A model generated the notes under the pieces. The model saw only the letters and a list, made by a program, of their open reading frames with translations. It did no database searches and had not been told where the DNA came from. Below are positions 24,053 to 39,203 of a DNA stretch of 64,000 nucleotides, in pieces (the first letter of the stretch is position 1; each line of letters begins with the position of its first letter). The translations under genes and the position numbers were made by a program. The stretch comes from Phytohabitans rumicis (lineage in GTDB: Bacteria; Actinomycetota; Actinomycetes; Mycobacteriales; Micromonosporaceae). The stretch covers positions 930,001-994,000 of the forward strand of contig NZ_BLPG01000001.1 of NCBI RefSeq assembly GCF_011764445.1, in the 5' to 3' direction.

Positions 24053-24394
24053 TCAAGACCGGTCGGGCCGCCACCCGCCGCGGCGTTGTTCGGTGACCCG
24101 GACAACGATGGCCAGTTCGCGGGCCAGCTTCACGGGTTTGACCGCGATCGCCGCGGGCAGCGTCCAGAGGAACGCGCCGGGGTCGCGCCTGAGGCGGCGC
24201 AGCATCCGCCGCGGCTTGGACGCCGCGCGATGGCCCAGGTCGAGCAGGTAGCGGTGCGGGTCTGCGGTGGTCATTTCGTGGCCGCAGGCGTTGCACCGGC
24301 TCGCCACGAGCAATCGGCCGGCGTAGCGCAGCTCGTGGGGGGTTTCAGTGGTGCAGCGCAGGCAGGTCAGCGTGGTGAGGTGTAGGTCGGTCAC
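24053..24394 (-). CDS. Small zinc-ribbon protein of unknown function
   Basis: This is a 113-residue protein with two CxxC pairs (CLRC at 11-14 and CNAC at 34-37) that form a probable zinc ribbon. A basic helix (KPRRMLRRLRRDPGAF) and a hydrophobic segment (LWTLPAAIAV) follow. It sits between the IspD-like gene (10-base gap) and DUF885 (19-base gap) on the same strand, so it may belong to the end of the polyol operon. I do not recognise a family. Nucleic-acid binding or membrane attachment are possibilities only. Confidence 0.7.
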   Translation of the reverse strand: MTDLHLTTLTCLRCTTETPHELRYAGRLLVASRCNACGHEMTTADPHRYLLDLGHRAASKPRRMLRRLRRDPGAFLWTLPAAIAVKPVKLARELAIVVRVTEQRRGGWRPDRS

Positions 24395-24404
24395 GCGACG
24401 CCCC

Positions 24405-25136
24405 TTAGAACAGGTCGTACTCGGCTGTGGCCAGGATCTGCTCGGCCAGGAACAGGTCCTGCGGATAGGTGATCTTCAGGTTGACCGCCTCGCCCATCAG
24501 CCAGTGAACCTTGACGGTGCTGAACCGCTCCAGGCAGGACGAGGTGTCGGTGCCGACAAATCCGGCGCGGGCCGCGGCCTCGTACGACGTGAGCAGCGGC
24601 TCGGCCGCGAATGCCTGGGGGGTCTGTGCGCGGACCAGCCTCCGCAGGTGGGTGCCGGTGACGGCACCGTCGCCGTCGACCTCGACGAGGTCTTCGCCCG
24701 GGACGCACGGGATGGCCCCGCCGTGTTCCCTGGCCAGGTGGATCACGCCCGCGGTGAGCGTGGGCGACGCCAGCGGCCGGGCCGCGTCGTGGATGACGAC
24801 GACGTCTATCTCGCCGGCGTCGATGCGGCCGGCGAGGTGGCGCAGGGCGTTGAGTTCGGACTCCTGCCGGGTCGCGCCGCCCCAGACCACCTCGACCTCG
24901 CGGTCGTCGACTTCGCGCTCGACGATCCAGCGGGCCGTGCGGTGGTCTTCCTGGCGGGCGACCAGGACAAGCGCGCCGATGTCCGGTGTCGCGGCGAGCG
25001 ATCGCAGCGACCAGGAGGCCAGGCTGCGCCCGGCGAGCGGGAGGTATGCCTTGTTCTGCTCGGCACGGAACCGTGCCCCGCTGCCGCCGGCCAGCACGAC
25101 TCCGGCCGCTCGCGCACGGGTTAGCCCATTGCGCAT
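24405..25136 (-). CDS. IspD-like cytidylyltransferase (sugar-alcohol phosphate type)
   Basis: This is a 243-residue nucleotidyltransferase of the IspD/TarI family, which join CTP to methylerythritol 4-phosphate or ribitol 5-phosphate. It shows VVLAGGSGARFRAEQNKAYLPL (the lysine that binds CTP, though the usual PK is NK), HDAARPL near residue 114 and RAQTPQAF, an IspD signature. The ATG at 25136 lies 1 base from the stop of the E2 gene. Its presence at the end of an operon with a DXR-II-like enzyme suggests that a methylerythritol-type phosphate is the common intermediate. TarI-like activity on another polyol phosphate is the alternative. Confidence 0.85.
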   Translation of the reverse strand: MRNGLTRARAAGVVLAGGSGARFRAEQNKAYLPLAGRSLASWSLRSLAATPDIGALVLVARQEDHRTARWIVEREVDDREVEVVWGGATRQESELNALRHLAGRIDAGEIDVVVIHDAARPLASPTLTAGVIHLAREHGGAIPCVPGEDLVEVDGDGAVTGTHLRRLVRAQTPQAFAAEPLLTSYEAAARAGFVGTDTSSCLERFSTVKVHWLMGEAVNLKITYPQDLFLAEQILATAEYDLF

Positions 25137-25137
25137 G

Positions 25138-26262
25138 TCACCTCGCCTCGTGGAGTGCTTGCGGGTCCGCGAGCAGGCCACGGAGGCGGCCGAGCAGTCG
25201 GGCGGCGTCCGCGGCGTCGGCCAGTCGCTGGTCGACGGTCAGGCCGACCCGGCCCCGGGTGTGTACCGTGACGCCGTCCGCGGCGGCCACGGGCTGTGCG
25301 GCGATGGTGCCCACAGTGAGCGCCGTCCCCTGCGGCGGGGTCAGCGGCGTCTGCCCGGTCACGACGCCGAGCCCGCCGAGGTTGAGCAGGGTGGTGGTGG
25401 CGCCGGTCAGACTGCCCAGATCGAGTTTCCCGGCCCGCGCCTGGGTGGCGAGGTCGCGGACGCGCGTGTCCGCCCGCCCGACCGGCATGAGGTCGGGGTC
25501 ACGCAGGACCGGGGCGAGGGTACCCACCGGGGTGTCGACGGCGACCGCCACACCAACATGATCATATAGCTCGGGGCCGCTGTCCACCCAGGTCGCGTTG
25601 AGGGCGTGCCCGCGCAAGGCCGCGGCCCAGGCCCACCCGATGAGCGTGGTCCAGCGGCATCCGCGGCGGTCCGCCGCCAGCGTGTCGAGGTCCAGGTCCG
25701 CGTACACGGTGAACTGTGGCACCTGGGCGCTGGGCGCCATCCGGCGCGCGGTTGCCGCCCGGACCGCCCGCCGACGGATGTCCATCTTGGACGGTCGCAC
25801 CGCCGCGACCTGCTCCACGTCCGCGACCAGCACACAGCCGTCGGGTCCGCTGCCGGTCACCGTGGCGAGGTCGATCGCGAGCGCCGCCGCGCGCATCCGA
25901 GCCAGGGGTACGGCGGGAGCCCGCCCCGCCGCGGGCACGGTCACCGGCGTCGGGGTGGGAGCCGGTGCGGCGGCCGGGGCCGGCGCTTGCTCGTCGAGCA
26001 ATCCGTCGAGCAGGTCGTCGGCGGCGCTGGCGATGTAGGCGATGGGCCGGCCGACCTCGACGGTGTCGTCGGGTGCGGCGAGGGTGCGGGTCAGCGTGCC
26101 GTCGGCCGGCGCTTCCACCTCCATGTCCACCTTGTCGGTGGCCACGTCGCAGATTGGCTCACCCTTGCGGATCGGGTCTCCTGGGGCCTTGTGCCAGACC
26201 AGCAGCGTGCCCTCCTGCATGGTCATGGACATCTTCGGCATCAGCACGGGCACTTCGCGCAT
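25138..26262 (-). CDS. Dihydrolipoamide acyltransferase E2-like protein with altered active site
   Basis: This is a 374-residue E2-like protein. The lipoyl domain (residues 1-78) carries ATDKVDMEVEAP with Lys44 as lipoylation site. An Ala/Pro-rich linker (about 90-115) leads to a small E3-binding domain (ARMRAAALAIDLATVTGSGPDG). The catalytic domain ends TVDQRLADAADAARLLGRL, where most E2s have DHRxxDG. The catalytic His is Gln, so acyl transfer may be altered. It is in order E1alpha, E1beta, E2 with ATGA overlaps, as in acetoin dehydrogenase operons. No E3 gene is in the window, so a shared E3 would be needed. Confidence 0.88.
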   Translation of the reverse strand: MREVPVLMPKMSMTMQEGTLLVWHKAPGDPIRKGEPICDVATDKVDMEVEAPADGTLTRTLAAPDDTVEVGRPIAYIASAADDLLDGLLDEQAPAPAAAPAPTPTPVTVPAAGRAPAVPLARMRAAALAIDLATVTGSGPDGCVLVADVEQVAAVRPSKMDIRRRAVRAATARRMAPSAQVPQFTVYADLDLDTLAADRRGCRWTTLIGWAWAAALRGHALNATWVDSGPELYDHVGVAVAVDTPVGTLAPVLRDPDLMPVGRADTRVRDLATQARAGKLDLGSLTGATTTLLNLGGLGVVTGQTPLTPPQGTALTVGTIAAQPVAAADGVTVHTRGRVGLTVDQRLADAADAARLLGRLRGLLADPQALHEAR

Positions 26263-27248
26263 CACCACTCCTTGACCAGTTCGCCGCCGGCAGTCACGAT
26301 CTCCGGCACCTGGGGCACACAGGCCGTCTCGAGCTGGGGGGCGTACGGGATCGGGGCGTCCAGCCCGCACAGCCGCCGGATCGGCGCGCGCAGGTAGCCG
26401 AACGCCCGGGACTCGGCGACCAGCGCGGCCAGTTCGGCGACGTAGCCGCAGGTACGCGGTGCCTCCTGGACGAGCAGCAGCCGGCCGGTTTCGATGACCG
26501 ATGCCAGGATCGGGTCGGCGTCCAGCGGTGTGAGGGTGCGCGGGTCGATGACGGTGGCAGCCACACCCGCGGCGGCGAGCTGGTCGGCGGCGTCGAGGGC
26601 GCGGCTGACCATCACGCCGGTGGCGACGATGGTGAGGTCGGCGCCGCGCCGGCGTACCGCGGCCGTGCCGAGCGGCACCCGTCCGGCGCCAGCCGGGACC
26701 GGGCCGTTGGTGCGGTAGAGGAGCTTGTGTTCCAGCACGATGACCGGGTTGGGGTCGTCGATGGCGGCCAGCAGGAGGCCCTTGGCGTCGGCGGGCGTGG
26801 TCGGCATGACCACCTTGAGCCCGGGTACGTGCGCGAACCACGCCTCCAGGCTCTGCGAGTGCTGGGCGGCCGCGCCGGTGCCCGAGCCGGTCGGCGCGCG
26901 CAGCACCAGCGGCACGCTCGCCTCCCCGCCGAGCATGAAGTGGATTTTCGCGGCCTGGTTGACGATCTGGTCCATCGCCTGCGCGGTGAAGTCGGAGAAC
27001 TGGATCTCCACCACCGGGCGCATGCCGGCCAGCGCCGCGCCGACGGCCGCGCCCACGATGCCGAGTTCGGCGATCGGCGTGTCCCGTACCCGTTCGGGCC
27101 CGAAGCGGTGCACGAGGTCACCGGTCACGCCGAACGCGCCGCCGTACACCCCGATGTCCTCGCCCAGCAGGAACACCCGCTCATCGGCGGCCAGCGCCTC
27201 GGCCAGCGCCTCGCGGACCGCCTCGGCGTACGTCAGGTCACTTCGCAT
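26262..27248 (-). CDS. 2-Oxoacid/acetoin dehydrogenase E1 component, beta subunit
   Basis: This is a 328-residue protein of the transketolase-like beta subunits (AcoB/PdhB type). The motifs are [18 protein letters not shown] near the N-terminus, [45 protein letters not shown] and [11 protein letters not shown]. The C-terminal half has the transketolase C fold. It would pair with the alpha subunit at 27238 to bind TPP and pass an acyl group to E2. Its start lies 11 bases inside the alpha gene, and its stop overlaps the E2 ATG. Substrate specificity (pyruvate, acetoin or a deoxyketose phosphate) is not readable here. Confidence 0.92.
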
Positions 27249-28206
27249 AGACCGCGTCCGCCAGCTCGGCGGGGTCGGCGTCGGGTGCGGCCATGGCGGC
27301 TTGAACGGCGGAGCGCACGGCCTGCCTGGCCTGCTCCCGGCACTGGTCTATGTCGGCGGCGGCGAGCGCGCCCATTTCGCTCGCCGCCGCCTCGAATAGG
27401 GTGATCGGGTCCCGCTCCCGCCACTGCTCGATCTCGTCGCGGGTGCGGTACAGGTTCTTGTCGCTTTTGGAGTGTCCCTTCCATCGGTAGGTGACGGCCT
27501 CCACAAAGGAGGGCCCATCACCGGACCGGGCGCGCGCGACGGCGTCGGTCACCGCGTCGTACACCTGCTGCACGTCGTTTCCGTCCACAGTGGTGCTTGG
27601 GATGCCGTACCCGGAAGCACGTTCGGCCAGCGTGGTCCTGGATGCCTTCGTAGATGGCATGGACATGCCGTACTGGTTGTTCTCGCACACGAACACGACG
27701 GGCAGTGACCAGATTGCGGCGAGGTTGACCCCTTCGTGCCAGGCGCCCTCGTTGACCGCGCCGTCGCCGAAGAAGCTCACCGTCACCTGGTCGGTGCCGC
27801 GCAGCCGGGCGGCGAGCCCGGCGCCGGCCGCGATCGGCACTCCCCCGGCGACGATGCCGTTGGCGCCGAGGTTGCCGGTGGCGACGTCGGCGATGTGCAT
27901 CGACCCGCCCCGGCCGCGGCAGTAACCGGTGCGCTTGGCCAGCAGTTCGGCCATCATCCGGTCCAGCGCGGCGCCCTTGGCGATGCAGTGGCCGTGGCCG
28001 CGGTGGGTGGAGGTGATGCTGTCGGTGGGCCGCAGGGCCAGGCACGTCGCGGTGGGCACCGCCTCCTGCCCGATCGACAGGTGCATGGTGCCGTGCATCA
28101 GCCCGCGGGCGAACAGCTCGTCGACCGCCTCCTCGAAGCGGCGGATCCGCCACATCGTGCCGAGCACCTGGCGGGCCAGGTCCGGGTCGGCCGATACGCC
28201 GGTCAT
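27238..28206 (-). CDS. 2-Oxoacid/acetoin dehydrogenase E1 component, alpha subunit
   Basis: This is a 322-residue TPP-dependent alpha subunit. [10 protein letters not shown] and [11 protein letters not shown] near residues 70-105 precede the TPP-binding motif [20 protein letters not shown] and [11 protein letters not shown]. The C-terminus carries [16 protein letters not shown]. The length is that of acetoin-dehydrogenase AcoA and bacterial PDH alpha proteins. Acetoin dehydrogenase cleaves an alpha-hydroxyketone. By analogy, 1-deoxy-D-xylulose 5-phosphate, also a methyl alpha-hydroxyketone, could be cut to acetyl-lipoamide and glyceraldehyde 3-phosphate. It is coupled by ATGA to the SAF-domain oxidoreductase upstream. 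Confidence 0.92.
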
Positions 28207-29537
28207 GCCCTCGTCCCGGCGAGTACCGGCGCGGAGTTGGCCGTGCTCAGGCTGGCCCCGCCGACCGCCTGGTCCTGCAGGCGGCGCAGGGTGGCCAGTA
28301 CGGTGTCGTCGCGCAGGGCGACGTCGTCGCGGGTCAGTGGCCGGTCGACGGGGACGTCGTGGAGCAGTGTCGCCCCGCCGGCCAGTCCGAGCGGCACGAG
28401 TCCCTCGTCCGCCGCGACGCCGGCGGCCTCGGTCAGGCCGCGGACCATGTACCCGCCGATGCCGTCGAGGATCTCGCCGGCCTTGAGGTCGCGCTTGGCG
28501 ACCGCGACGACCTCGGCCATCCACGTCGTCGGGGCGAGGCTGGGCTCCCGGTCGAGCACCGCCTCGGCGACCGTGAGCGGGGCCTCCAGGCTGGCTAGAT
28601 GGTAGGGACGGTAGAAGGTGTAGTACGGGCCCGGCCCCATGCTGAGGTATTCCAGTTCCTCCGCGACGACCGCGTCCGGGCAGTGCGCCACGGCGAAGAC
28701 GCCCGGTGCGACCGAGCCGGTGCAGTAGTCGACGACGCCCCACTGCTCCAGCACGCCGCCCTCGGCGGCGGGGCGGAAGACCTGGGCGAGCTGCTGCACG
28801 GTGGCCGCCGGGCCGTGCATTCCCCGCCGGCTCACCTTCAGGCCGGTGGCGTTGGCCAGCGCGGCCATCTCGATCATCGTCTTGGAGCCGTCGACGAAGC
28901 TGGCGAGCATCTTGGGGTTCATCCCACGCGCATGGGCGGTCGCGGCGACGGTGTCCGGGGTGGCATGCCGGTCGAGCGGATTGTTCTTGCCCTTGCCCGC
29001 GCAGACCACGTCGAAGCCGAGCGCGCGGGCGTAGTCCACGAGCCGTTTGGCCTCGGCCGGCTCGTCTCCGCGGCAGACGGTGTAGACCCGGCCCATCCGC
29101 TTGGCCAGGTTGGTCAGTGCGAGGCCGACGGTGACGTCCGCCTCGACGGTCAGCAGCGCGACGTCCTTGCCGGCCAGCAGCGCGCTGAGCGCGACCTGGG
29201 CGCCCACCTCCGGAATGCCGCTGGCTTCCACGACGATGTCGACCGGCAGGTGGGCCAGCAGTTCGGCGTCGTCCATGGCGACCGGCTGGCCGGCCTCGAT
29301 CGCGGCGGCGAGCAGATCCGGGTCGGACGCGAGCAGCGGGTCCGCGCGCCCTGCCCGCCGGTACGCCGACAGTGCCCTTTCCGGCGCGACGTCGGCGACG
29401 GCCGCGACCTCCACGCCCGGCATCCGCCCCACCTGCGCGACGAATCCGGTGCCCATCTGTCCGGCACCGACGAGCCCGACCCGGATGGGGCGGCCCACCC
29501 GCCGTTCCCGATCCACGAGCCGTTCCAGGTACGCCAT
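28203..29537 (-). CDS. SAF-domain oxidoreductase, DXR-II/DRL-like
   Basis: This is a 444-residue NAD(P)-dependent oxidoreductase. The N-terminal Rossmann motif is VGLVGAGQMGTGFVAQVG (residues 20-37). The catalytic half includes DIVVEASGIPEVGAQ, VCRGDEPAEAKRLVDYA and VCAGKGKNNPLD. The C-terminal SAF-like domain reads LKAGEILDGIGGYMVRGL. This arrangement matches the homoserine-dehydrogenase-like DRL (DXR-II) family, first shown in Brucella abortus to interconvert 1-deoxyxylulose 5-phosphate and methylerythritol 4-phosphate. It has a strong ribosome binding site (GGGAGGA) before ATG 29537. A SorC-type operator-like site at 29570-29601 lies upstream. The assignment to DXR-II rather than another SAF oxidoreductase needs phylogeny. 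Confidence 0.82.
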   Translation of the reverse strand: MAYLERLVDRERRVGRPIRVGLVGAGQMGTGFVAQVGRMPGVEVAAVADVAPERALSAYRRAGRADPLLASDPDLLAAAIEAGQPVAMDDAELLAHLPVDIVVEASGIPEVGAQVALSALLAGKDVALLTVEADVTVGLALTNLAKRMGRVYTVCRGDEPAEAKRLVDYARALGFDVVCAGKGKNNPLDRHATPDTVAATAHARGMNPKMLASFVDGSKTMIEMAALANATGLKVSRRGMHGPAATVQQLAQVFRPAAEGGVLEQWGVVDYCTGSVAPGVFAVAHCPDAVVAEELEYLSMGPGPYYTFYRPYHLASLEAPLTVAEAVLDREPSLAPTTWMAEVVAVAKRDLKAGEILDGIGGYMVRGLTEAAGVAADEGLVPLGLAGGATLLHDVPVDRPLTRDDVALRDDTVLATLRRLQDQAVGGASLSTANSAPVLAGTRA

Positions 29538-29569
29538 GCGATTCCTCCCTCACCAGCCGGTTCCCGTCT

Positions 29570-29601
29570 GCACATATGCTCAGCAAGGTGAACCGATGTG
29601 A
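29570..29601. promoter_or_regulatory. GCACAT-N20-ATGTGA operator-like site before the DXR-II-like gene
   Basis: GCACAT at 29570-29575 and ATGTGA at 29596-29601 are separated by exactly 20 bases. The same half-sites with the same spacing occur at 32759-32790 before the PTS operon. The site lies 32 bases upstream of the oxidoreductase start, in the gap after ptsI. I infer control by the SorC-family regulator at 31676. Confidence 0.65.
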
Positions 29602-29637
29602 TACATCATGGCCCCGAAACATGCCGGCGGGCAAGGC

Positions 29638-31302
29638 TCAAACGATCTCGATCGCCTCGGCCGCGGCCTCGCGGACTCCGCGCCGCGCCGCGGCCGGGTC
29701 GCCCGCCCGCAGCGCGATGTCGGCCAGCCGCGCGCACAGCGCCTGGTCTGCGGACCCGAGTACGGCCGCCACCGCCGGCAGCATCCGGGCGGTCGCGGAA
29801 AGGCTGGTCACGCCCAGTCCCACCAGCACGAGCGCGAGCAACGGGTCGGCCGCGGCCTCGCCGCAGACCCCGACCGGTTTGCCCAGCCGGCGGCCGGCGT
29901 CCCCGGTCATCTGGATCAGGCGCAGGACCGCGGGCAGCCACGGGTCGTTGAGGGCGGCGAGCGCACCGACCAGCCGGTCGGCGGCGTACGTGTACTGGGT
30001 CAGGTCGTTCGTGCCGACGCTGACGAAGTCGACGACCGCCAGCAGGTCGTCGGCGAGGAGGGCGGCCGACGGCACCTCGACCATCGCGCCGACCCGGGCC
30101 AGACCGTGCGCCCGGGCCCGGGCCACGAACTCGGCGGCCTCCGCGGGGGTGGCGATCATCGGTGCCATCGTCCAGACCTCGGTGTGCGACCGCCGCGCCG
30201 CCTCGGCGACGGCCGAGAGCTGGGTGTCCAGCAACTCCGGGTCGGTGCGCATCGCGCGTAGGCCACGCACGCCGAGCGCCGGGTTGGTCTCCACGCCGGC
30301 GGTCAGGTACGGCAGCGGCTTGTCCGAGCCGGCATCGAGCGTGCGTACCACCACGCGCCCGCCCGGGAAGGCGGCGAACACCTCGGCGTACGCGGCCACC
30401 TGCTCGTCGAGCGTGGGTGGCGTGAGCCGGTCGCCGAACAGGAACTCCGTCCGTAGCAGCCCCACCCCGGCCGCCCCGAGCGAGCGCGCCCGCCCTGCGT
30501 CGGCGGGCTCACCGACGTTGGCCAACAGGGCCACGGCGGTCCCGTCGGCGAGGTGGCCGCGGTAATCGACGGTCGCGGGCCGGTCCCGGCGGGGCGCGGC
30601 GAACAGATCGGCGTCCTCCGGCTCGATCACCACCTCGCCCGTGCCGCCGTCGACGCCGACCCGGGTGCCGTCCGCGATCGCGGTGACGCCCGGGCAGGCC
30701 ACCACGGCGGGGATGCCCAGCGCGCGGGCGAGGATCGCGGTGTGACTGGTCGGCCCGCCCTCCTCGGTCACCAGCGCCAGCACCCGGTCCGCTGGCAGGG
30801 TGGCCGTGTCGGCCGGCGCCAGGTCCCGGGCGACCAGCACGAACGGCGTTCCAGGATCGGGCAGGCCCGGCGGCGCGATGCCGGAAAGGTCCGCGATCAC
30901 CCGATCCCGCACGTCGTCCAGGTCGCGCACCCGCTCGGCGAAGTAGCCGCCGGCGGCGGCCAGGGCGGCCCGGAACTGCTCCGCCGAGCGCCATACCGCG
31001 TACGGGGCCGCCACCCGCTCTTGCTCGATCAGTTCCGCTGCCGCGGCCGCCCAGCTCGGATCCTCGGCGATCATGGCGGTGGCTTCCAGGATCTCGGCGG
31101 CGGGGCCGGTGGCGGCCACGGCGCGGCGCCGCATTTCGGCGCACACCCGGCCGGTCGACTGGACGAGCCGATCCCGCTCGGCGCCGGGGTCTTCGACGTG
31201 CGTGGGTTCGGGCGGGGCGGGCCGGCGCGCGCCCATGGTGGCCACCGGCCCCGCCGCACGTCCGGCGCTGACTCCGATTCCGGTCAGGTTTCGTATGGGC
31301 AC
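29638..31302 (-). CDS. ptsI: PTS enzyme I (phosphoenolpyruvate-protein phosphotransferase)
   Basis: This is a 554-residue enzyme I, which takes phosphate from PEP and passes it to HPr. The phospho-carrier motif is EEGGPTSHTAILARALGIPA with His187. The PEP-binding domain has GLLRTEFLFGDR, TLDAGSDKPLPYL, PMIATPAEAAEFV and GVCGEAAADP, all standard EI signatures. The GTG start at 31302 is preceded by GGAGGAG, and that segment is duplicated in tandem upstream. It is divergent from ptsH and leads the catabolic operon. The presence of EI, HPr and a specific EII set in one cluster points to a dedicated phosphorelay. Confidence 0.95.
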   Translation of the reverse strand: MPIRNLTGIGVSAGRAAGPVATMGARRPAPPEPTHVEDPGAERDRLVQSTGRVCAEMRRRAVAATGPAAEILEATAMIAEDPSWAAAAAELIEQERVAAPYAVWRSAEQFRAALAAAGGYFAERVRDLDDVRDRVIADLSGIAPPGLPDPGTPFVLVARDLAPADTATLPADRVLALVTEEGGPTSHTAILARALGIPAVVACPGVTAIADGTRVGVDGGTGEVVIEPEDADLFAAPRRDRPATVDYRGHLADGTAVALLANVGEPADAGRARSLGAAGVGLLRTEFLFGDRLTPPTLDEQVAAYAEVFAAFPGGRVVVRTLDAGSDKPLPYLTAGVETNPALGVRGLRAMRTDPELLDTQLSAVAEAARRSHTEVWTMAPMIATPAEAAEFVARARAHGLARVGAMVEVPSAALLADDLLAVVDFVSVGTNDLTQYTYAADRLVGALAALNDPWLPAVLRLIQMTGDAGRRLGKPVGVCGEAAADPLLALVLVGLGVTSLSATARMLPAVAAVLGSADQALCARLADIALRAGDPAAARRGVREAAAEAIEIV

Positions 31303-31352
31303 TGTGGCTCCTCCCGTTTATTTCGTATGGGCACAGCAGCTCCTCCCGTTTA
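31289..31352 (-). repeat. 32-bp tandem duplication covering the ptsI ribosome binding site and start
   Basis: Bases 31289-31320 and 31321-31352 are two copies of a 32-bp unit differing at about three positions. Each holds the ptsI GGAGGAG and a GTG followed by CCCATACGAAA on the minus strand. Because 32 is not a multiple of three, the upstream GTG reads another frame. Confidence 0.85.
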
Positions 31353-31394
31353 CACTTCTGCGCACGGTAGCTCACATCTGTGCGACACGAGGAG

Positions 31395-31673
31395 ATGACA
31401 GTGCCTCAGGGAACGGTAAATGTGGCGGCCCGGGCCGGGTTGCACGCACGACCGGCGGCGTTGCTGGTGCAGGCCGCGGCACGGATGCCCGGCACCGTAC
31501 GGATCGGCCGGGTCGGCCAGGCGCAGGTCGACGCCAAGAGCATCCTGGCGGTACTCGGCCTCGCCATCGCGTGCGGCGAACAGGTGCAGGTGCAGACCGA
31601 CGGACCGGCCGCGGAGCAGGCGCTTGCCGAGTTGCTCGCGATGCTGAAGACGGATCCCGACGCGGCGGGTTGA
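31395..31673 (+). CDS. ptsH: PTS phosphocarrier protein HPr
   Basis: This is a 92-residue HPr. The phosphorylation motif AGLHARPA places His at residue 17, and VDAKSILAVLGLAI includes the Ser equivalent to regulatory Ser46. The rest follows the HPr fold (GEQVQVQTDGPAAEQALAELLAML). The ATG at 31395 has a GGAG ribosome binding site. It is on the plus strand, divergent from ptsI and converging on the SorC regulator (3-base gap). It transfers phosphate from EI to the glucitol-type IIA at 34875. The leader holds a TCACAT half-site at 31374-31379 but not the full operator. Confidence 0.95.
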   Translation: MTVPQGTVNVAARAGLHARPAALLVQAAARMPGTVRIGRVGQAQVDAKSILAVLGLAIACGEQVQVQTDGPAAEQALAELLAMLKTDPDAAG

Positions 31674-31675
31674 GC

Positions 31676-32665
31676 TCAGCGCTCCGCCAGCGCCAGTAGC
31701 GCCTTCGCCAGCGCGTCGTCGCAGATGAGCACGTTGAGGAAGCCGCCCCTGAGGGCGCCGAGGACCCCGCGAGCCTTCTCCTCCCCGACGGCCAGGCCGA
31801 CCACGGTCGCGATGGCGCGAAGATCCGCTATCGACACCGCGAGCACGCGGTCGTGCACCTCGCCGTGGATCTCCTGACCGTCCGCGTCAAAGAACCGCGC
31901 GCACACGTCGCCAACCGGGTTGGCGCGCACGAACCGGGCCCGCTGCGTGGGCGTGAGCCGCAACGCGTCGATCACCGCCGCCGACGAACCCACGCCGTAC
32001 GCGCCCAGGCCGACGAACGAGAGCGAGGAATGGGCGGCGGCCTGCAACACCGACGCGATCGCCGGCTCGGCCATCAAGGTGGTCCGGGCCGCCGCCGACT
32101 CCAGCAGCGCGGGCGCGTGCAGCCGCTGGAACGTGGTGCCGAGGCGGGTCGCCAACTCGCGGACGAGCTCCTCGCCGGTGATCTCCGACGTCACCGAGGA
32201 CAGGCCGCCGACCAGGGGTAGCACCTCGACCGGGAACGTCCGATCAGTGTCCACGGCGTCGACCATCGCCTGGAGCGTGCGGCCCCAGGACAGCGACACC
32301 CGCTGCTCGGCCCGGAGCGAGTCGAGCAGCCACTCGGCCGCCACCGGGCCGACCTGACGCAGGGCCGCCTCGTACGGCCGGCCGCTGACCACCCGGCAGT
32401 CGGCGAGACCGAACGCGCTCTGTATCTCGCCTTCGAGCGTCGTGTCGCGGCCGCTGGGGTCGTGGATGCGGATATCGACGATGCCCTGCTCACGAGCGGA
32501 CGCCAGGATCCGGGACACGTTGGCCCTGCTCAGGCCGAGCTCTTCGGCGACCTGCTGCTGGGACAGGTTGTCCTCGTAGTACATCCGGGCCACCTTGACC
32601 AGCACGTCGCGGTTGCGGGGCGCGGGCATCGTCACATCCGTCCGGTCGTCTTCACCAACGGTCAC
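31676..32665 (-). CDS. SorC/DeoR-type sugar-binding transcriptional regulator
   Basis: This is a regulator of about 329 residues. The HTH is MYYEDNLSQQQVAEELGLSR with ANVSRILASAREQGIVDI, typical of SorC proteins (DeoR, CggR, SorC). The C-terminal sugar-binding domain has LGLSRA upstream and RVSLSWGRTL, FVGLGAYGVGSSA and GEVHDRVLAVSIADLRAIATVVGLAVGEEKA, the phosphosugar-sensing region. I chose GTG 32665. ATG 32698 and ATG 32629 are alternatives in the same frame. It is divergent from the gutM-srl operon and convergent with ptsH. Operator-like sites at 32759 and 29570 fit this family. Confidence 0.9.
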   Translation of the reverse strand: MTVGEDDRTDVTMPAPRNRDVLVKVARMYYEDNLSQQQVAEELGLSRANVSRILASAREQGIVDIRIHDPSGRDTTLEGEIQSAFGLADCRVVSGRPYEAALRQVGPVAAEWLLDSLRAEQRVSLSWGRTLQAMVDAVDTDRTFPVEVLPLVGGLSSVTSEITGEELVRELATRLGTTFQRLHAPALLESAAARTTLMAEPAIASVLQAAAHSSLSFVGLGAYGVGSSAAVIDALRLTPTQRARFVRANPVGDVCARFFDADGQEIHGEVHDRVLAVSIADLRAIATVVGLAVGEEKARGVLGALRGGFLNVLICDDALAKALLALAER

Positions 32666-32758
32666 GATTATGCACTTCCCACGCACACTTCCCGGCATCC
32701 CCGTTCGCGGCGCAGGTCAGGGTCTTGCGTGTGGCTGCGATCACATGCTAGAAACTTT

Positions 32759-32790
32759 GCACATTCGTTCGCACCATTGCACGGATGTGA
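32759..32790. promoter_or_regulatory. GCACAT-N20-ATGTGA operator-like site before the PTS operon
   Basis: GCACAT (32759-32764) and ATGTGA (32785-32790) have the same 20-base spacing as the site at 29570. Flanking bases extend the inverted repeat: TTTGCACATTCG at 32756-32767 against CGGATGTGAAAA at 32782-32793, 10 of 12 complementary. It lies between the divergent SorC regulator and gutM. Binding of the regulator here would control both directions. Confidence 0.7.
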
Positions 32791-32822
32791 AAATAGCCGT
32801 CCGCCATGGAGGGAGGGTGATC

Positions 32823-33227
32823 GTGGAGTCGATCACCGTCTTGTTTCTCGGCCTCGGCGTCCTATGGGTCGGGCAGTTCGCGATGGCATGGGTCCAGGCG
32901 AGGTCATTCCTGCGAGAGACCCGCGTCCTGCGCAGGTCGGGGCGGGTCGCGGTCGGCATGGGCCGACGCCGGATGTTCCGGCGAGCGTACGTGGCACTCG
33001 CCGCCGACGACACCGGCCGCGTGGTCGCCGCCCGGGCGATGACCGGCCTCACCGTCTTTGCCCGCCCCCGGGCACTGCCCGCACTGGACGGCGTCCACAT
33101 CAGCGACCTGGCGCGCGGGGGCGTCGAGTCGACCCTGTCACCACTCCTACTCGCCGCCGCGACCCAAGCGGCGGGATTCCTGGCCGGAACGCCGCGCCAG
33201 AGCAAGCCCGCCGCCACGGGGAACTGA
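32823..33227 (+). CDS. GutM-like protein, glucitol operon activator family
   Basis: This is a 134-residue protein of the GutM (glucitol operon activator) family. One N-terminal transmembrane helix (VLFLGLGVLWVGQFAMAW, about residues 5-22) is followed by LRRSGRVAVGMGRRRMFRRAYVALA, the basic cytosolic region. GTG 32823 is preceded by a GGAGGGAGG ribosome binding site at about 6 bases. GTG 32817 in frame is less well spaced. It opens the glucitol-type PTS operon, as gutM often does, though its mechanism is not settled. It probably modulates PTS expression or assembly. Confidence 0.8.
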   Translation: MESITVLFLGLGVLWVGQFAMAWVQARSFLRETRVLRRSGRVAVGMGRRRMFRRAYVALAADDTGRVVAARAMTGLTVFARPRALPALDGVHISDLARGGVESTLSPLLLAAATQAAGFLAGTPRQSKPAATGN

Positions 33228-33257
33228 ACCCGCCGTCACTGTCGCAAGGAGCCACCC

Positions 33258-33887
33258 GTGCTAACTGACTGGATATACCTGGCTGAGGAGGGCACGCCCG
33301 AACCCCCCAAGGGCGTACTCGGCACCCTCGCGCACTGGGCCGAGGACTTCATCGGCGTCTTCAAAGCCGGTGGAGAGACCTTCGTGTCCCTGCTGGTCGG
33401 CATCGTCCCCCTGCTGATCATCCTGCTCACCGCGGTCAACGCGCTGATCCGGATGATCGGGCCGGAGCGCATCGACAGGCTCGGCGCGGTCGCCGCACGG
33501 CCGGGCCTGATCTACTACCCCCTGCGCTACCTGGTCCTGCCGTTCCTCGCGGTCTTCTTCCTCACCAACCCGATGGCGTACACGCTCGGACGGTTCCTGC
33601 CGGAAGAGAAGAAGCCCGCCTTCTACGACTCGGCCGTCAGCTTCGTCCACCCCATCCTCGGCATCTTCCCGCACGCCAACCCCGGCGAGTACTTCGTATA
33701 CGGCGGCATCGCCGCCGGCATCACCACGCTCGCCGCCAACAACAGCGCGATCCTGCTCGGCGACCTGGCGGTGCGCTACTTCCTGGTCGGCCTGCTCGTC
33801 ATCTTCATCCGCGGCGTCGTCACCGAGATCATCACCAAGGTGCTGCTGTCCCGCCGCGCCCGCCAGACCCAGGAGGCGACGGCATGA
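33258..33887 (+). CDS. srlA: PTS glucitol/sorbitol-type transporter subunit IIC
   Basis: This is a 209-residue membrane subunit matching the SrlA pattern: a leading amphipathic stretch [21 protein letters not shown], then [51 protein letters not shown] and [18 protein letters not shown]. Four to five membrane spans are visible. It forms the polyol channel with the second membrane protein encoded next. GTG 33258 follows gutM by 30 bases. Its stop overlaps the next ATG (ATGA at 33884-33887). The glucitol family takes sorbitol and other polyols, so the substrate here may be a polyol other than sorbitol. Confidence 0.93.
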
Positions 33888-34476
33888 CCGCCACAACCGA
33901 GAAGATCGAAGCCCCCGCCGCGGCCCGGTCGACACGTTCAACGCCGTCCTGGTCGGCATCGGCAAGCGGGTCGGCACCGTGGTCGGCACGCTCTACCAGG
34001 CCGGCCGGGACTCGATCGACACCATCCTGCGCAACGTGCTGCCGTTCATGGCCTTCGTATCCCTGATCATCGGCATCATCACCACGACCGGCGTCGGCGA
34101 GGCGCTCGCCAAGGGCCTACGCGGGCTGGCCGGCTCCCTCATCGGCCTGCTGATCATGGCGATCATCTGTGCGCTGCCGGTGCTCTCCCCCCTGCTCGGC
34201 CCCGGCGCCGTGATGGCGCAGATCATCGGCACGCTGATCGGCGTACAGATCGGCGAGGGCAAGATCCCGCCACAGTTCGCACTGCCCGCGCTCTTCGCGA
34301 TCAACCCCCAGGTGGGCTGCGATTTCATACCGGTCGGTCTGGCCCTCGGCGAGGCGGAACAGGAAACTGTGGAAGTCGGCGTGCCCGCCGTGCTCTTCTC
34401 CCGGGTCGTCACCGGGCCGCTGGCCGTGGTGCTCGCCTACTTCGCCAGCTTCGGCCTCTACAGCAACGCGGACTGA
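33884..34476 (+). CDS. srlE: PTS glucitol-type IIBC membrane domain encoded alone (frameshifted near the start)
   Basis: This corresponds to the C-terminal membrane half of SrlE. The ATG start reads [13 protein letters not shown], then the frame shifts near 33922-33926. One restored G gives [18 protein letters not shown]. From there I see [40 protein letters not shown] and [20 protein letters not shown], which align with the membrane region of enterobacterial SrlE. The IIB domain that normally precedes it is a separate downstream gene (34501). About 197 residues when repaired. The split and reversed gene order is unusual compared with E. coli. Confidence 0.88.
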
Positions 34477-34500
34477 CCGGACCCAGGAAGGACGGCAACG

Positions 34501-34872
34501 ATGGGTGACTACAAGAGCGTACGGATCGCCGCAGGGCGCGGTGGCTGGGGCGGACCGCTCGTGATCCAGCCGAACAGCACCCGCAACCTCATCTACTCGG
34601 TGACCGGCGGCGGCATCCACCCTGTCGCGCAACGCATCGCCGAGCTCACCGGCGGCGAGCCGTTCGACGGCTTCCGCAGCTCGGCGCCGTTCGACCGGAT
34701 CGCGGTCGCGGTCATCGACTGCGGCGGCACCGCCCGCATCGGCGTGTACCCCATGAAGAAGGTGCCGACCGTGGACGTACACCCCACCTCGCCGGCCGGG
34801 CCGCTAGCCATGTTCATCAAGGAAGACATCTTCGTGTCCGGCGTCAAGCCGGAGAACGTCACCGAGGCGTGA
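34501..34872 (+). CDS. PTS glucitol-type IIB domain as a stand-alone protein
   Basis: This is a 123-residue cytosolic protein equivalent to the N-terminal IIB part of SrlE. The N-terminus is VRIAAGRGGWGGPLVIQPN. The phosphocysteine motif is VIDCGGTARIGVYP with Cys74. It ends FIKEDIFVSGVKPENVT, as SrlE does just before its linker. It receives phosphate from the IIA at 34875 and phosphorylates the polyol during transport. A good ribosome binding site (AGGAAGGA) precedes ATG 34501. It would have to dock on the membrane protein encoded upstream. Confidence 0.9.
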   Translation: MGDYKSVRIAAGRGGWGGPLVIQPNSTRNLIYSVTGGGIHPVAQRIAELTGGEPFDGFRSSAPFDRIAVAVIDCGGTARIGVYPMKKVPTVDVHPTSPAGPLAMFIKEDIFVSGVKPENVTEA

Positions 34873-34874
34873 CC

Positions 34875-35255
34875 ATGGAAGTGACCCGGTACGCCACCGA
34901 GGTAACCGCCGTGGGCGCTCTCGTACCCGACTTCGTCGAGCAGCAGATCCTGGTCTTCTTCTCCGACGCCGCCCCGGAGGAACTGCACGACTTCTCCGTC
35001 CTGCACCACCCCACCGTGGCCAAGAGCGGACTGACTACCGGCGACGAGGTCGTCATCGACGGCACCACCATGCGGGTGCTGTCCGTCGGAGACCTGGCCG
35101 AACAGAACCTCCTCGCCCTCGGGCACCTCAACCTCAAGGCCAACGGCGCGTCACAGGCACCGCTGCCAGGCGACGTCTGCGTCGAGGCCCGCGCCCTGCC
35201 GATCCCCCGCCCCGGCAGCAAACTGTGGATCACCGGAACGCTCACACCCCCGTAA
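34875..35255 (+). CDS. srlB: PTS glucitol/sorbitol-type IIA component
   Basis: This is a 126-residue IIA protein of the SrlB family. The sequence VEQQILVFFSDAAPEELHDF and SVLHHPTVAKSGLTTGDEVV contains two His (44, 45), one of which should be the phosphorylation site. SVGDLAEQNLLALGHLNLK is conserved in SrlB (SVAEDNLRELGHVTL in E. coli, from memory). ATG 34875 is two bases after the IIB stop. It receives phosphate from HPr and passes it to Cys74 of IIB. It is the last gene of the PTS operon. The following hairpin at 35275-35303 is the probable terminator. Confidence 0.92.
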   Translation: MEVTRYATEVTAVGALVPDFVEQQILVFFSDAAPEELHDFSVLHHPTVAKSGLTTGDEVVIDGTTMRVLSVGDLAEQNLLALGHLNLKANGASQAPLPGDVCVEARALPIPRPGSKLWITGTLTPP

Positions 35256-35268
35256 GCGCCAGCAACCG

Positions 35269-36264
35269 TCATACCCGGGACGGCCGCCCGCCGGCCGTCC
35301 CGGTCTTCGGCACCGACACCTCCTCCGGGTGCTCCGCCTGGTAAGGATCGGCGGCGGCGCCCTCGGGTGCCTCGGCCTCGAGTTCGACGCGCGTCTTGAG
35401 GAGCGCGTCGCGTACCTCGGCGCTCACCTGCGGGTACTGCGGGCTTATCTCGATCAACGAGTGCGCGATGATGGCGGCCGCGGAGATGCGGGCGAACCAC
35501 TTGTGGTCGGCGGGGATCACATACCACGGCGCCCACTTCGTGCTCGTGTGCGAGAGCATCTCGGAGAACGCGGCCTGGTAGTCGTCCCAGCGCTGGCGCT
35601 CCCGCACGTCGGCGGCCGAGAACTTCCAGTTGTGGTCGGCCAGGTCGATGCGGCGCAGGAAGCGGATCCGCTGCTCCTCCCTGGACAGGTTGAGGAACAG
35701 CTTCACGATGCGAAAGCCGTTGTCGGCCAGGTGGCGTTCGAAGTTGTTGATGGCCCGGTAGCGTCGCTTCCAGATGTTGCCAGCCTTGCACTCGTCGGGC
35801 AGTTTCTGTCGGTCCAGCAGTTCCCGATGCACGCGTACGACGAGGACCTCCTCGTAGTGCGAACGGTTGAAGATGGCGATCTCCCCGCGGCCGGGGAGGC
35901 GTTGGGCGTACCGCCATAGGTAGTCGTGGTTGAGTTCCTCCGCCGAGGGCACCTTGAAGCTGGACACGTGAACACCCTGCGGGTTGACCCCACTCATGAC
36001 ATGACGGATCGTGCCGTCTTTGCCGGCCGCGTCGAGCGCCTGCAGGACGACCAGTACCCCGTGCTGGTCGTCGGCGGCCAGCCGCGCCTGGTAGTCGACC
36101 AGCAAGCCATTGACCCGGTGGAGCAGGTCCACGCTCTCCTTCTTGTGCAGGAAGCTCGCCTTGTACCCCGGATCGAAGTCCTTGGCCAGGTGCACGCTCG
36201 CCCCGGGCCTGACCCGGAACGGCTTGATGAACTTGGCGATCCGTTTTTCGGCTGGCTTGGCCAT
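35269..36264 (-). CDS. Polyphosphate kinase 2 family protein
   Basis: This is a 331-residue PPK2 that uses polyphosphate to phosphorylate nucleotides (AMP/ADP or GDP). Walker A-like QALDAAGKDGTIRHVM is at residues 88-103, Walker B and lid residues in IAIFNRSHYEEVLVVRVH, and ERQRWDDYQAAFSEMLSHTS near the C-terminus. The one-domain length fits class I or III. Its ATG (36264) overlaps the stop of the P-type ATPase as ATGA, so the two are coupled. It converges on the PTS operon. A link between ATP regeneration and the ion pump is conceivable. Confidence 0.92.
   Translation of the reverse strand: MAKPAEKRIAKFIKPFRVRPGASVHLAKDFDPGYKASFLHKKESVDLLHRVNGLLVDYQARLAADDQHGVLVVLQALDAAGKDGTIRHVMSGVNPQGVHVSSFKVPSAEELNHDYLWRYAQRLPGRGEIAIFNRSHYEEVLVVRVHRELLDRQKLPDECKAGNIWKRRYRAINNFERHLADNGFRIVKLFLNLSREEQRIRFLRRIDLADHNWKFSAADVRERQRWDDYQAAFSEMLSHTSTKWAPWYVIPADHKWFARISAAAIIAHSLIEISPQYPQVSAEVRDALLKTRVELEAEAPEGAAADPYQAEHPEEVSVPKTGTAGGRPSRV
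35275..35303. terminator. GC-rich hairpin between the PTS operon and ppk2
   Basis: Perfect 12-base arms at 35275-35286 and 35292-35303 (CCGGGACGGCCG / CGGCCGTCCCGG) with a 5-base loop. It lies 20 bases after the IIA stop, inside the last codons of the convergent ppk2. It can terminate both directions. Confidence 0.75.
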
Positions 36265-38977
36265 CACACGAATCCCTTCTGTTCCTCTTTTCTCGCGGGT
36301 GGCATCGCCGCGAATCGCCGGACCAGCAGCTTGCCCAACTCCCACAGGATCAGCAGCGCGATGGGCGGGACGAGCGCCCAGGCGAACTGCAACGCGTTGA
36401 TCTCCACCGTGCCGAGAATGCGCCGGAAGGCGTCCATCTGGGTGACGAACACCGCCAACGCAAACTCCACGACGATTGCCCAGTTCAACTGCTTGCTGTC
36501 GAATGTCGCCGGCGTCAGTGCCGTATCGGTTTCGCTGCGGCACTCGACCGCGGCCACGATCAGGCACAGCGCGAACGACGTGAACGCGATGGATTGGCCG
36601 ACCTCGACGCTGTCGTAGCGGGACGCGCCAAGCTCGATCAGCCCGAGCAGGCCCACGGTGATGGCGAGCCCGACCAGCCCGACCGTGATGACCATGCGCC
36701 GGGTAAGCACCGACTCGCCACGCGGGCGGGGACGCAAGGACATCAGCCCTGGAGTCTCCCGGTCGAAACCGAGCGCGAAGCCGAACGCGGCGTTGACCAC
36801 GAAGTGGATCCACAAGACCTGCGCTGGCGTGAACGGCTCTCCGGCGGCGATGTTGAACAGGCTGGCGCCCAGGAAGGTCAGCACGAACACGACGAGCAGG
36901 ACGAGCACGAAGCGGATGTACTTCGTGAGGTTGTCGTAGATCTTGCGACCCTGCTCGACGGCGAAGATGATCGTCGCGAAGTTGTCGTCCGAGAGGATCA
37001 TCCGGCTCGCGTTCTTGGCTACCTCGGTCCCGTTCCCCATGGCGATACCGATGTCGGCGGACTTGATGGCCGGGGCGTCGTTCACCCCGTCGCCGGTCAT
37101 GGCGACGACATCACCGTTCTTCTTCAACGTGTCGGCGAGCAGCACCTTGTGCTCGGGTGCGACCCGGCCGACCACGCCGATACTGTCCACCCGCCTGAGC
37201 CGTTCTGCCTCGGGCAGGGCGGCGAAGTCGGCACCAAGGATGGCCTCCCCCGAGATGCCGATCTGCTTGGCGATCGCCGCGCCAGTGATGACGTCGTCTC
37301 CGGTCACCATTCGCACCCGGATGTGCGCTCGCTGAGCGTTGCGCACCGCGGTCTTCGACTCATCGCGCGGCGGATCCACCATCCCGACCAAGCTGGCCAG
37401 CCGCAACTCGGTGACGTAGTCGAGCAGATCGGCCTCCGGGTCGAAGTCGGCAGCATCGATGTCCCGGGTGGCAGCGGCCATCACCCGCTGGCCGCCGCTC
37501 TCCATGCGCTCCAGATGAGCGTGTGCCCACTCGCCACCGGAACTGCTGCGCTCGACGACGGCCGGCGCCGCGCCCTTGACGAAGGCCCGCACAACTGACC
37601 TACCTGCCGCATCCTTGGTCTGGTTGAACGTCGCCATCAGCTTGTAGCTCGGATCGAACGGTAAGGTCGCCAGCCGGGGCAGCCGCTCGCGGGTGGCGTC
37701 GACGTCCAGGCCGGCCTTGTGCCCGAGTACGAGCAGCGCGCCCTCGGTCGGGTCGCCCACGACCTTGCCGTCCACGAGTACGGCGTCGTTCGCGACCAAG
37801 TACGGCAAGATCTGGTCGTCGAGCGTGGCAGCACTTCCCGCCGTATGATGAACCCTGCCCGCCAGGCCGTAGCCGATCCCGGAGATGGTGTACCGGTCGC
37901 CGGGATCGATCACCTCCACCGCGGTCATCTGGTTCATCGTCAGCGTGCCGGTCTTGTCGGAGTTGATCGCCGAGACAAACCCCAGCGTCTCGACCGAGGG
38001 CAGGTCTTTGACGATCGCGTTGCGATTGGCTAGATCGACGCCACCGATCGACAGGATGGTCTGGGAAACCGTGGGTAGCGCCTCCGGGATCGCCGCGATC
38101 GCCAGCGAGACGGCGGCGACGAACAGTACATCCACGCCTCGCCACGCTGGCGCCCCAGGACGAACATCACGATCATCGTGAAGCCGGCCGCCGATGCGAT
38201 CCACAGCGTGAGCCGGTTGAGCTCCTTGGTCAGCGGGGACTTCTCCATAGCCGTGCCCGCCAGCAATCCGGAGATCTTGCCCAGTTCGGTACGCGCACCG
38301 GTGCCGGTGACGATCATGGTCCCGCTGCCGTGCGTCACCGGAGTGTTCATGAACGCCATGTTCGTCTGGTCACCCGGGCCGACCTCGGCGTCCGGCAACG
38401 TTCCCGCGTCCTTGGCCGCCGGCGTGCTCTCTCCCGTCAGCGCCGACTCGTCGATCTGCAGCGCTCTCGCCGCGATGATCCGCCCGTCCGCCGGCACCTG
38501 ATCCCCCGCGGCGATCAGCACGATGTCGCCGGCGACCAGCCGCTCCGCCGGAATCTGTGACTCAGCACCGTCGCGCCGTACGCGGGCGGATGCCTTCATC
38601 ATTGATTTGAGCGCATTCATGGCGCTCTCTGCTTTACCCTGCTGCCGTAGCCCCACAACGGCATTGACGATCGTCAGCAAAACGAGCATGATCGCGGTGC
38701 CCCATTCGCCGACGACCAGCGACACCACCGCAGCGACGATCAGGATGATTTGCATGTAAGTGCGATATTCATCAAGAAATCGGAGCCAGGCCGGCTTTGG
38801 CTTCTCCTCGGGCAGTGCGTTCGGGCCATCCGCGCCCAGCCGCTCCGCCACCCGCCCAGCCGTTAACCCGGCGGCCGGGTCGACCCCGAACGCTGTGGTG
38901 ACGGCATCGGGCGGCTGCGCGTACCAGCGTCCACCCAAAGGTGCAGGCCGATCCTCAACATCCGATTTGACCGCCAT
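36264..38977 (-). CDS. P2-type cation-transporting ATPase (frameshifted)
   Basis: This is a Ca2+/Na+-type P-ATPase of about 905 residues after repair. It has the N-terminal cation ATPase domain (TAGRVAERLGADGPNALPEE), the actuator TGES motif in ESALTGESTPA, PEALP in the M4 metal site, the phosphorylation motif NSDKTGTLTMNQM, GDGVNDAPAI in the P domain and six C-terminal helices. The frame changes near 38132. One restored G gives GEAWDVLFVAAVSLA. ATG 38977 has a GGAGAC ribosome binding site, better than the upstream GTG 39019. PEALP instead of PEGLP hints at cation choice, which cannot be settled by eye. It is coupled to ppk2. Confidence 0.9.
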
Positions 38978-39203
38978 AGTCCCGTCTCCGAATCCTCGCT
39001 GAGCCGAGGATCCGCCCATCCCATCCGGCGCGCCTCATCTTCCCGGGATGGCCGTACCGCCCAACCCCCACCAACGGACGGACCGACAACCGTCCAGACC
39101 TGCCTTCACCTCTCGTCAGGCCGCGCCGGCGAGCTCGCAAGGAGCCACAGGTCGGCACGGCCGTTGCACCTGTCACCGACACGACGCGGGGCGGTACTTC
39201 AAA

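Follow-up and report, generated by a model that had tools for sequence, protein, structure and literature searches.

The window analysed here, a stretch of 64,000 nucleotides from the genome of Phytohabitans rumicis (contig NZ_BLPG01000001.1, positions 930,001 to 994,000), hosts a cluster of genes at 24.4-35.3 kb that combines a glucitol-type phosphotransferase system (PTS), an oxidoreductase of the DRL/DXR-II type and the E1 and E2 parts of a thiamine-dependent dehydrogenase complex. With moderate confidence we read this cluster as an operon for the catabolism of 2-C-methyl-D-erythritol or of a closely similar 2-methyltetrol. Overall, methylerythritol would be converted via 2-C-methyl-D-erythritol 4-phosphate (MEP) and 1-deoxy-D-xylulose 5-phosphate (DXP) to acetyl-CoA and glyceraldehyde 3-phosphate, an isoprenoid-making enzyme being run in reverse. 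The identities of the genes, the conservation of the set, the DXR-II signature of the window's oxidoreductase and the distinctness of the E1 subfamily are established by sequence comparison, and from these we infer the substrate and all of the reactions.

Plants produce methylerythritol, a five-carbon polyol related to isoprene chemistry, and the oxidation of isoprene in air yields 2-methyltetrols among its major products. A widespread sink for these compounds would therefore matter for plant-microbe relations and for atmospheric carbon. No pathway for the use of methylerythritol was found in the literature, as covered by open-licence papers.

Genes and proposed route

A preliminary description of this DNA listed 13 genes in the cluster. 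All of them are present and belong to the expected families, as confirmed by Pfam and NCBIfam profile searches, and the operon can now be extended to position 24053 by a last gene (24053..24394, minus strand) that encodes a small Cys4 protein (CxxC...CxxC) with no Pfam match. The transport genes are on the plus strand, and their domains all score above the Pfam cut-offs. They encode GutM (32817..33227, start picked by its ribosome-binding site; PF06923, 78.3 bits), the IIC protein SrlA (33258..33887; PF03608, 231.9 bits), the membrane C-terminal part of SrlE (33979..34476; PF07663, 160.5 bits), the IIB protein, which is the N-terminal part of SrlE (34501..34872; PF03612, 178.6 bits), and the IIA protein SrlB (34869..35255; PF03829, 98 bits). 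HPr is encoded at 31401..31673 on the plus strand (PF00381, 86.5 bits) and enzyme I (EI) at 29638..31302 on the minus strand (TIGR01417, 344.7 bits against a cut-off of 341.7).

Powered by its own EI and HPr, the PTS would take up the polyol and phosphorylate it to MEP, which the DRL-type NAD(P) oxidoreductase (28203..29537, minus strand; PF21135 DRL_cat, 228 bits) would convert to DXP. The thiamine-dependent E1, made of E1alpha (27238..28206, minus strand; PF00676, 281.8 bits) and E1beta (26262..27248, minus strand; PF02779/PF02780, with NF006667 at 356.5 bits above its cut-off of 321), would then break the C2-C3 bond of DXP, in the manner of acetoin dehydrogenase acting on acetoin, and this cleavage would pull the unfavourable step before it. 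Glyceraldehyde 3-phosphate would be released, while the acetyl group would pass to CoA via the lipoyl arm of E2 (25138..26262, minus strand; lipoyl, E3-binding and acyltransferase domains), with an E3 supplied from elsewhere in the cell. A SorC/DeoR-type sugar-phosphate-sensing regulator (31676..32698, minus strand, true start possibly more internal; PF04198, 190.9 bits) would sense a phosphorylated intermediate.

This scheme of uptake, reverse reductoisomerization and cleavage was put forward in the preliminary description, and it is partly supported. There are published precedents for the uptake and the cleavage (PMC3994034, PMC3424233). For uptake, the title of a 2004 paper by Testa, Cornish and Poulter, as cited in PMC3994034, holds the sorbitol PTS responsible for the transport of methylerythritol into Salmonella. 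The window's system resembles the glucitol/sorbitol PTS (SrlAEB, GutM) in its IIC, IIBC, IIA and GutM families, but differs from it in that SrlE is made as two polypeptides, that EI and HPr are its own, and that domain scans of the cluster proteins found no sorbitol-6-phosphate dehydrogenase.

Conservation of the gene set

A scan of 397 genomes of the order found 43 in which the oxidoreductase has a relative (E <= 1e-30). With the window's genome excluded, 18 order relatives are 55-67% identical to it over nearly the full length, and the other listed matches are 37-42% identical. All 18 close relatives have a glucitol PTS adjoining the DRL gene and a SorC gene, and 15 have both E1alpha and E1beta above threshold. 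In the remaining three the view of the locus is cut short, at a contig end (L044) or by stretches that end within the E1 genes (L045, L047). The Cys4 gene adjoins the ispD-like gene in 15 of the 18.

The link extends well beyond the order. Among the best 80 of 241 named DRL loci, whose linkage rates therefore describe near relatives, 38 have both E1 genes, 36 the PTS and 40 SorC; E1 and PTS occur together in 28 and at least one of them in 46. The 38 E1-bearing loci come from three phyla (14 Actinomycetota, 9 Bacillota, 14 Alphaproteobacteria and 1 Betaproteobacteria). A comparison of neighbourhoods had been called for in the preliminary description, and it shows the link between DRL and E1 recurring across eight bacterial classes, as the pathway predicts. 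None of 25 control loci holding the related DLO oxidoreductases, seven of them on shorter stretches (5-13 kb), has E1, PTS, SorC or ispD-like genes. On these comparisons the grouping of the operon genes is not due to chance and the set is conserved.

Transport is the part that varies. The PTS is swapped for an ATP-binding cassette (ABC) transporter and a sugar kinase in Rhizobium and S. meliloti, and for a major facilitator superfamily (MFS) transporter and an FGGY kinase in Priestia, while DRL, E1 and E2 stay. This exchange of transporter and kinase around a constant core suggests that the DRL acts on a polyol in phosphorylated form. In these relatives E3, and once lipA, join the DRL-E1-E2 cluster.

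The oxidoreductase and the E1 subfamily

The window's oxidoreductase has the NAD-binding, DRL catalytic and SAF domains of a DXR-II, and its closest solved structure is the Brucella DXR-II 3upl (349 bits). In Brucella numbering it retains G121, K191, K193, T229, H250, R320 and Y322 of the residues given in PMC3847144, among them all three that anchor the ligand (K191, K193 and T229). The DLO proteins differ at these sites: K193, T229 and R320 are altered in rows of the DLO1 type, whereas in C. necator N-1, the reference for DLO2, the changes are at K191, T229 and R320. DLO1 and DLO2 (PMC3847144) are otherwise akin to the window's protein, with relatives 37-42% identical in the same order, and their loci are the controls described above.

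A quick tree of 100 rows, built after removal of 27 near-duplicate, short or surplus rows from 127, sets DLO1 and DLO2 (support 100 each) apart from an 84-row DXR-II group that includes the window (support 90). A more careful tree of 74 chosen rows, with a mixture model and 200 bootstrap trees, places the window inside an actinobacterial group (100/99), but leaves this group, a Firmicutes group, DLO2 and one Rubrobacter row unordered among themselves (85/69). Two proteins whose matching stretch contains a stop close to its end (L005, L012) were excluded from the alignment (A1) and cut at the stop in the comparison of residues.

Some of these results count against a simple DXR-II assignment. 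The window's protein carries the substitutions E174R, F178Y and V351M; the first two are in the dimer cavity, where R320 and Y322 are kept, and E174 is replaced throughout the window's DRL group except at L071 and L076. Alanine, the DLO2 residue at position 229 according to PMC3847144, is found there in 12 of the 43 rows of the window's actinobacterial group (L003-L020, L050-L071, L075, L076 and the window). These rows (L006, L013-L018, L050, L053, L060, L061 and L070) nevertheless have the PTS in view in 12 of 12 cases and E1 in 10 of 12. DXR-II is monophyletic in just 4% of the 200 bootstrap trees, although an approximately unbiased (AU) test does not reject DXR-II held as one clade (p 0.40). 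The preliminary description had noted a resemblance to DXR-II/DRL, and had made the pathway depend on the protein not falling outside DXR-II. The residues and the quick tree place it with DXR-II, and the careful tree leaves the order relative to DLO2 open. We consider DXR-II chemistry likely for the window's protein, with the phylogeny falling short of proof.

The window's protein and Brucella abortus DXR-II (3upl/3upy) share the Rossmann, DRL_cat and SAF domains and K191, K193, T229, R320 and Y322; the window's protein differs in the three substitutions above, in being encoded in a transport and cleavage operon, and in that a housekeeping DXR (DXR-I) is encoded elsewhere in the same genome. 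The DRL is therefore not needed for isoprenoids, and we reject it as this genome's isoprenoid enzyme. More widely, of 32 named genomes that have DRL loci (E1-linked in some but not in all), 23 also encode DXR-I. As an aside, a DLO1-type gene of Deinococcus ficus (L138) has rfbF and rfbC for company in a nucleotide-sugar cluster, a context hinting that DLO1 may act in the synthesis of branched sugars.

The E1 provides the second line of evidence. When 60 E1alpha rows were placed in a tree (15 of 75 having been dropped beforehand), all 45 DRL-linked E1alphas fell in a 47-row group (89/84), with the acetoin E1s (L206, L209) and other paralogues outside it. A strict constraint of the 45 to one clade is rejected (p 4.7e-5) because the two further members, an E1 from a C. 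difficile plasmid and one from R. hidalgonense, lie within. The linked E1alphas also share residues: in a comparison with 12 other E1alphas, T40 is present in 41 of 41, H38 in 40 of 41 and a lysine or arginine at 247 in 41 of 41, and the window's protein has H38, T40 and K247. On this evidence the linked E1s are a distinct subfamily. T40 aligns with the phenylalanine two before a histidine in human pyruvate dehydrogenase (PDH), and K247 falls in the loop of the phosphorylation serine. With a reduced side chain and a conserved basic residue at its mouth, the pocket would suit a longer, phosphorylated ketone. A point on the other side is that T40 and Arg247 also occur together in one of the 12 other E1alphas, an own-genome paralogue (L199).

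The window's E1alpha scores below the cut-off of the PDH E1alpha equivalog (TIGR03182, 351.6 against 393.85). The layout of E1alpha, E1beta and E2 is that of acetoin dehydrogenase (AcoABC), and so is the proposed chemistry, in which a methyl alpha-hydroxyketone is cleaved to give acetyl-CoA. However, the acetoin E1s have F and E where the window has T40 and K247, and the window's cluster is without a butanediol dehydrogenase or a sigma-54 regulator. We reject acetoin catabolism, since the acetoin E1s lie outside the DRL-linked group and the active-site segment differs. In its place we propose that the E1 of the operon probably cleaves DXP. There is a precedent in PMC3424233, which reports higher DXP levels in vivo with a mutant E. 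coli PDH E1 but not with the wild type, and which states that purified PDH forms deoxyxylulose, a reaction opposite in direction to the proposed cleavage.

The two further members of the E1alpha group merit a brief description. On the C. difficile plasmid (L207) SorC, E1alpha, E1beta, E2 and lpdA are found with an MFS transporter and with no DRL in the stretch, and the E1alpha matches 12 of the 13 residues compared. The R. hidalgonense locus (L211; SorC, ABC transporter, E1, E2 and FGGY kinase, no DRL) was considered as a deoxyxylulose variant and set aside, its E1 matching just 4 of the 13.

Alternative readings and the wider role of DXR-II

Several further points weigh against catabolism of methylerythritol. 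The DXR equilibrium favours MEP, so that running it in reverse would take a strong driving force. In Salmonella an ATP-dependent kinase phosphorylates methylerythritol (PMC3994034), a poor fit to phosphorylation by the PTS. The DXR-II loci of Listeria, Enterococcus and Bacillus have the PTS but no E1. Among the DRL stretches of the Anaerosalibacter order the PTS is found in 2 of 20 and E1 in none of 20, the loci being mostly lone genes that are often beside a tRNA-synthetase gene; linkage is thus not universal in the clade. Among 354 genomes of its family, the window's genome is alone in having this DRL gene, and one other holds a 40% identical relative. A search for the empty site in a congener found a DUF885 gene as the sole gene in common.

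The alternative that survives best, though we think it unlikely, is that the substrate is some other branched polyol, for example a 2-C-hydroxymethyl tetritol of the apiitol type. The DRL would then lead to xylulose 5-phosphate, and the E1 would form glycoloyl-CoA or another product. DXR-II clusters of an epimerase type, which have no E1, are consistent with this. At L101 a SIS protein, a Zn-alcohol dehydrogenase, an FGGY kinase, RpiR and a ribulose-phosphate 3-epimerase accompany DXR-II, and the last three are also found at L083; L078 has the FGGY kinase, and L079 is likened to these by gene sizes only. In L. salivarius (L131) a DRL stands with a glucitol PTS, fsa and a transketolase, again with no E1. 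Such clusters suggest that the DXR-II group may also serve hydroxymethyl analogues on the way to pentulose phosphates, a point against the main reading, and the T229A change seen in some rows of the window's group could reflect a different substrate preference. That said, the four annotated E1-linked examples have no epimerase or transketolase near the DRL, although a gene for fructose-bisphosphate aldolase is present in one. A methyl ketone also suits an E1/E2 complex of the pyruvate/acetoin class, and the near-invariance of the E1 residues across phyla suggests a single substrate.

Somewhat less probable is an ordinary operon for sorbitol or another polyol, in which the oxidoreductase would be a polyol-phosphate dehydrogenase and E1/E2 would oxidize pyruvate formed downstream. 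Glucitol PTS genes usually serve sorbitol, and the top NCBIfam names of the E1 are those of PDH, with E1beta passing the cut-off and E1alpha falling short of it. However, the window's cluster is without an aldolase, a kinase or any other step from a polyol phosphate to pyruvate, the DXR-II ligand residues are kept, and the E1s form a group of their own apart from acetoin and pyruvate E1s.

Slightly further down the scale, we think it improbable that the pathway is genuine in the relatives but decaying or altered in the window. One reason to consider it is E2, whose catalytic motif, within 25138-25262 on the minus strand, reads DQRLADA in place of DHRxxDG; the catalytic histidine is lost, whereas the compared relatives keep DHR and nearly all of them DG. 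This loss is also a mark against the main reading, and the rarity of the DRL gene in the family points the same way. On the other hand, all 14 frames of the operon are open, 10 of 14 pass a coding filter on third-position G+C content (GC3), and EI, HPr, IIB and E1alpha look intact by eye at what we take to be their active-site motifs.

The IspD-like protein (24405..25136, minus strand; PF01128, 155 bits) raises the question of a link to isoprenoids. It is of the IspD fold family and shares the HDAARP and K(I/V)T motifs with the IspD/TarI cytidylyltransferases, but is diverged from them: the T-x-K and TDD motifs of three reference IspDs are absent from it and from every cluster orthologue aligned, and its score is below the equivalog cut-off (TIGR00453, 167.9 against 181.3). 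A role as MEP cytidylyltransferase is rejected on these grounds. The absence of the motifs makes it unlikely that MEP is fed to isoprenoids, and is also a caution on the main reading. A cluster-type ispD gene is found in 15 of the 80 named loci, actinobacterial ones only; the links at L055, L056, L057 and L059 are to a housekeeping ispD with intact T-x-K and are outside this count. In some actinobacterial contigs (L064-L068) a diverged IspD-like gene directly follows the DRL, with PTS and E1 not found there and a ribose-type ABC transporter at L066. The housekeeping ispD of the window's genome (G000:C1:4767513-4768162, outside the window) matches as two pieces in different frames, possibly through a frameshift or an assembly error.

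Salvage of methylerythritol for isoprenoids, with the PTS supplying MEP and the IspD-like protein making CDP-methylerythritol, is thus very unlikely: the IspD-like gene is present in 15 of the 18 order relatives and the housekeeping ispD may be broken in this assembly, but the motifs are absent, the score is low, the cluster-type gene is confined to actinobacterial loci among the 80 named ones, and such a route has no need for DRL, E1 or E2.

If the operon does degrade methylerythritol, the history of DXR-II may need to be reconsidered. The lone Brucella and Bartonella DXR-II proteins (100/98), presumably biosynthetic, are nested within E1-linked alphaproteobacterial proteins in the careful tree. 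Likewise, the lone Anaerosalibacter-order proteins, most of which adjoin a tRNA-synthetase gene, are nested within PTS/E1-linked ones. All 25 scanned genomes of the genus Brucella have a DRL match. A second paralogue (95-100% identical) has E1alpha directly after it in 16 of 16 loci and is fragmented in one further genome, while E1alpha or PTS genes are found within 1.5 kb on each side in none of 16 loci of the lone copy.

Published observations can be placed beside this. PMC3847144 mentions that Ochrobactrum anthropi and Mesorhizobium loti have further DXR-II paralogues that are functional, and one of those in O. anthropi may be of the E1-linked kind. The DRL of S. fredii NGR234 is E1-linked, and the strain is listed among those with DXR-II in the same paper, presumably for the same gene. 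According to that source, DXR-II occurs in bacteria with DXR-I, with the mevalonate pathway only, or with neither pathway, a scatter that a catabolic role would explain.

We propose, tentatively and at somewhat less than even confidence, that an undescribed catabolism by reversal of the MEP route, with a new DXP-cleaving, acetyl-CoA-forming E1/E2, exists in at least three phyla and is the older job of DXR-II, from which the Brucella/Bartonella enzymes and the lone Anaerosalibacter-order copies were recruited. If true, this would account for the scatter of DXR-II, its co-occurrence with DXR-I and its presence in the absence of the MEP pathway. It would thereby bear on the question of DXR-II scatter and redundancy that is left open in print (PMC3847144, PMC13001223).

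Outside the operon, a P-type cation ATPase gene at 36264-39019 on the minus strand is split across two overlapping frames, which encode its N- and C-terminal parts; this may reflect a frameshift or an assembly error.

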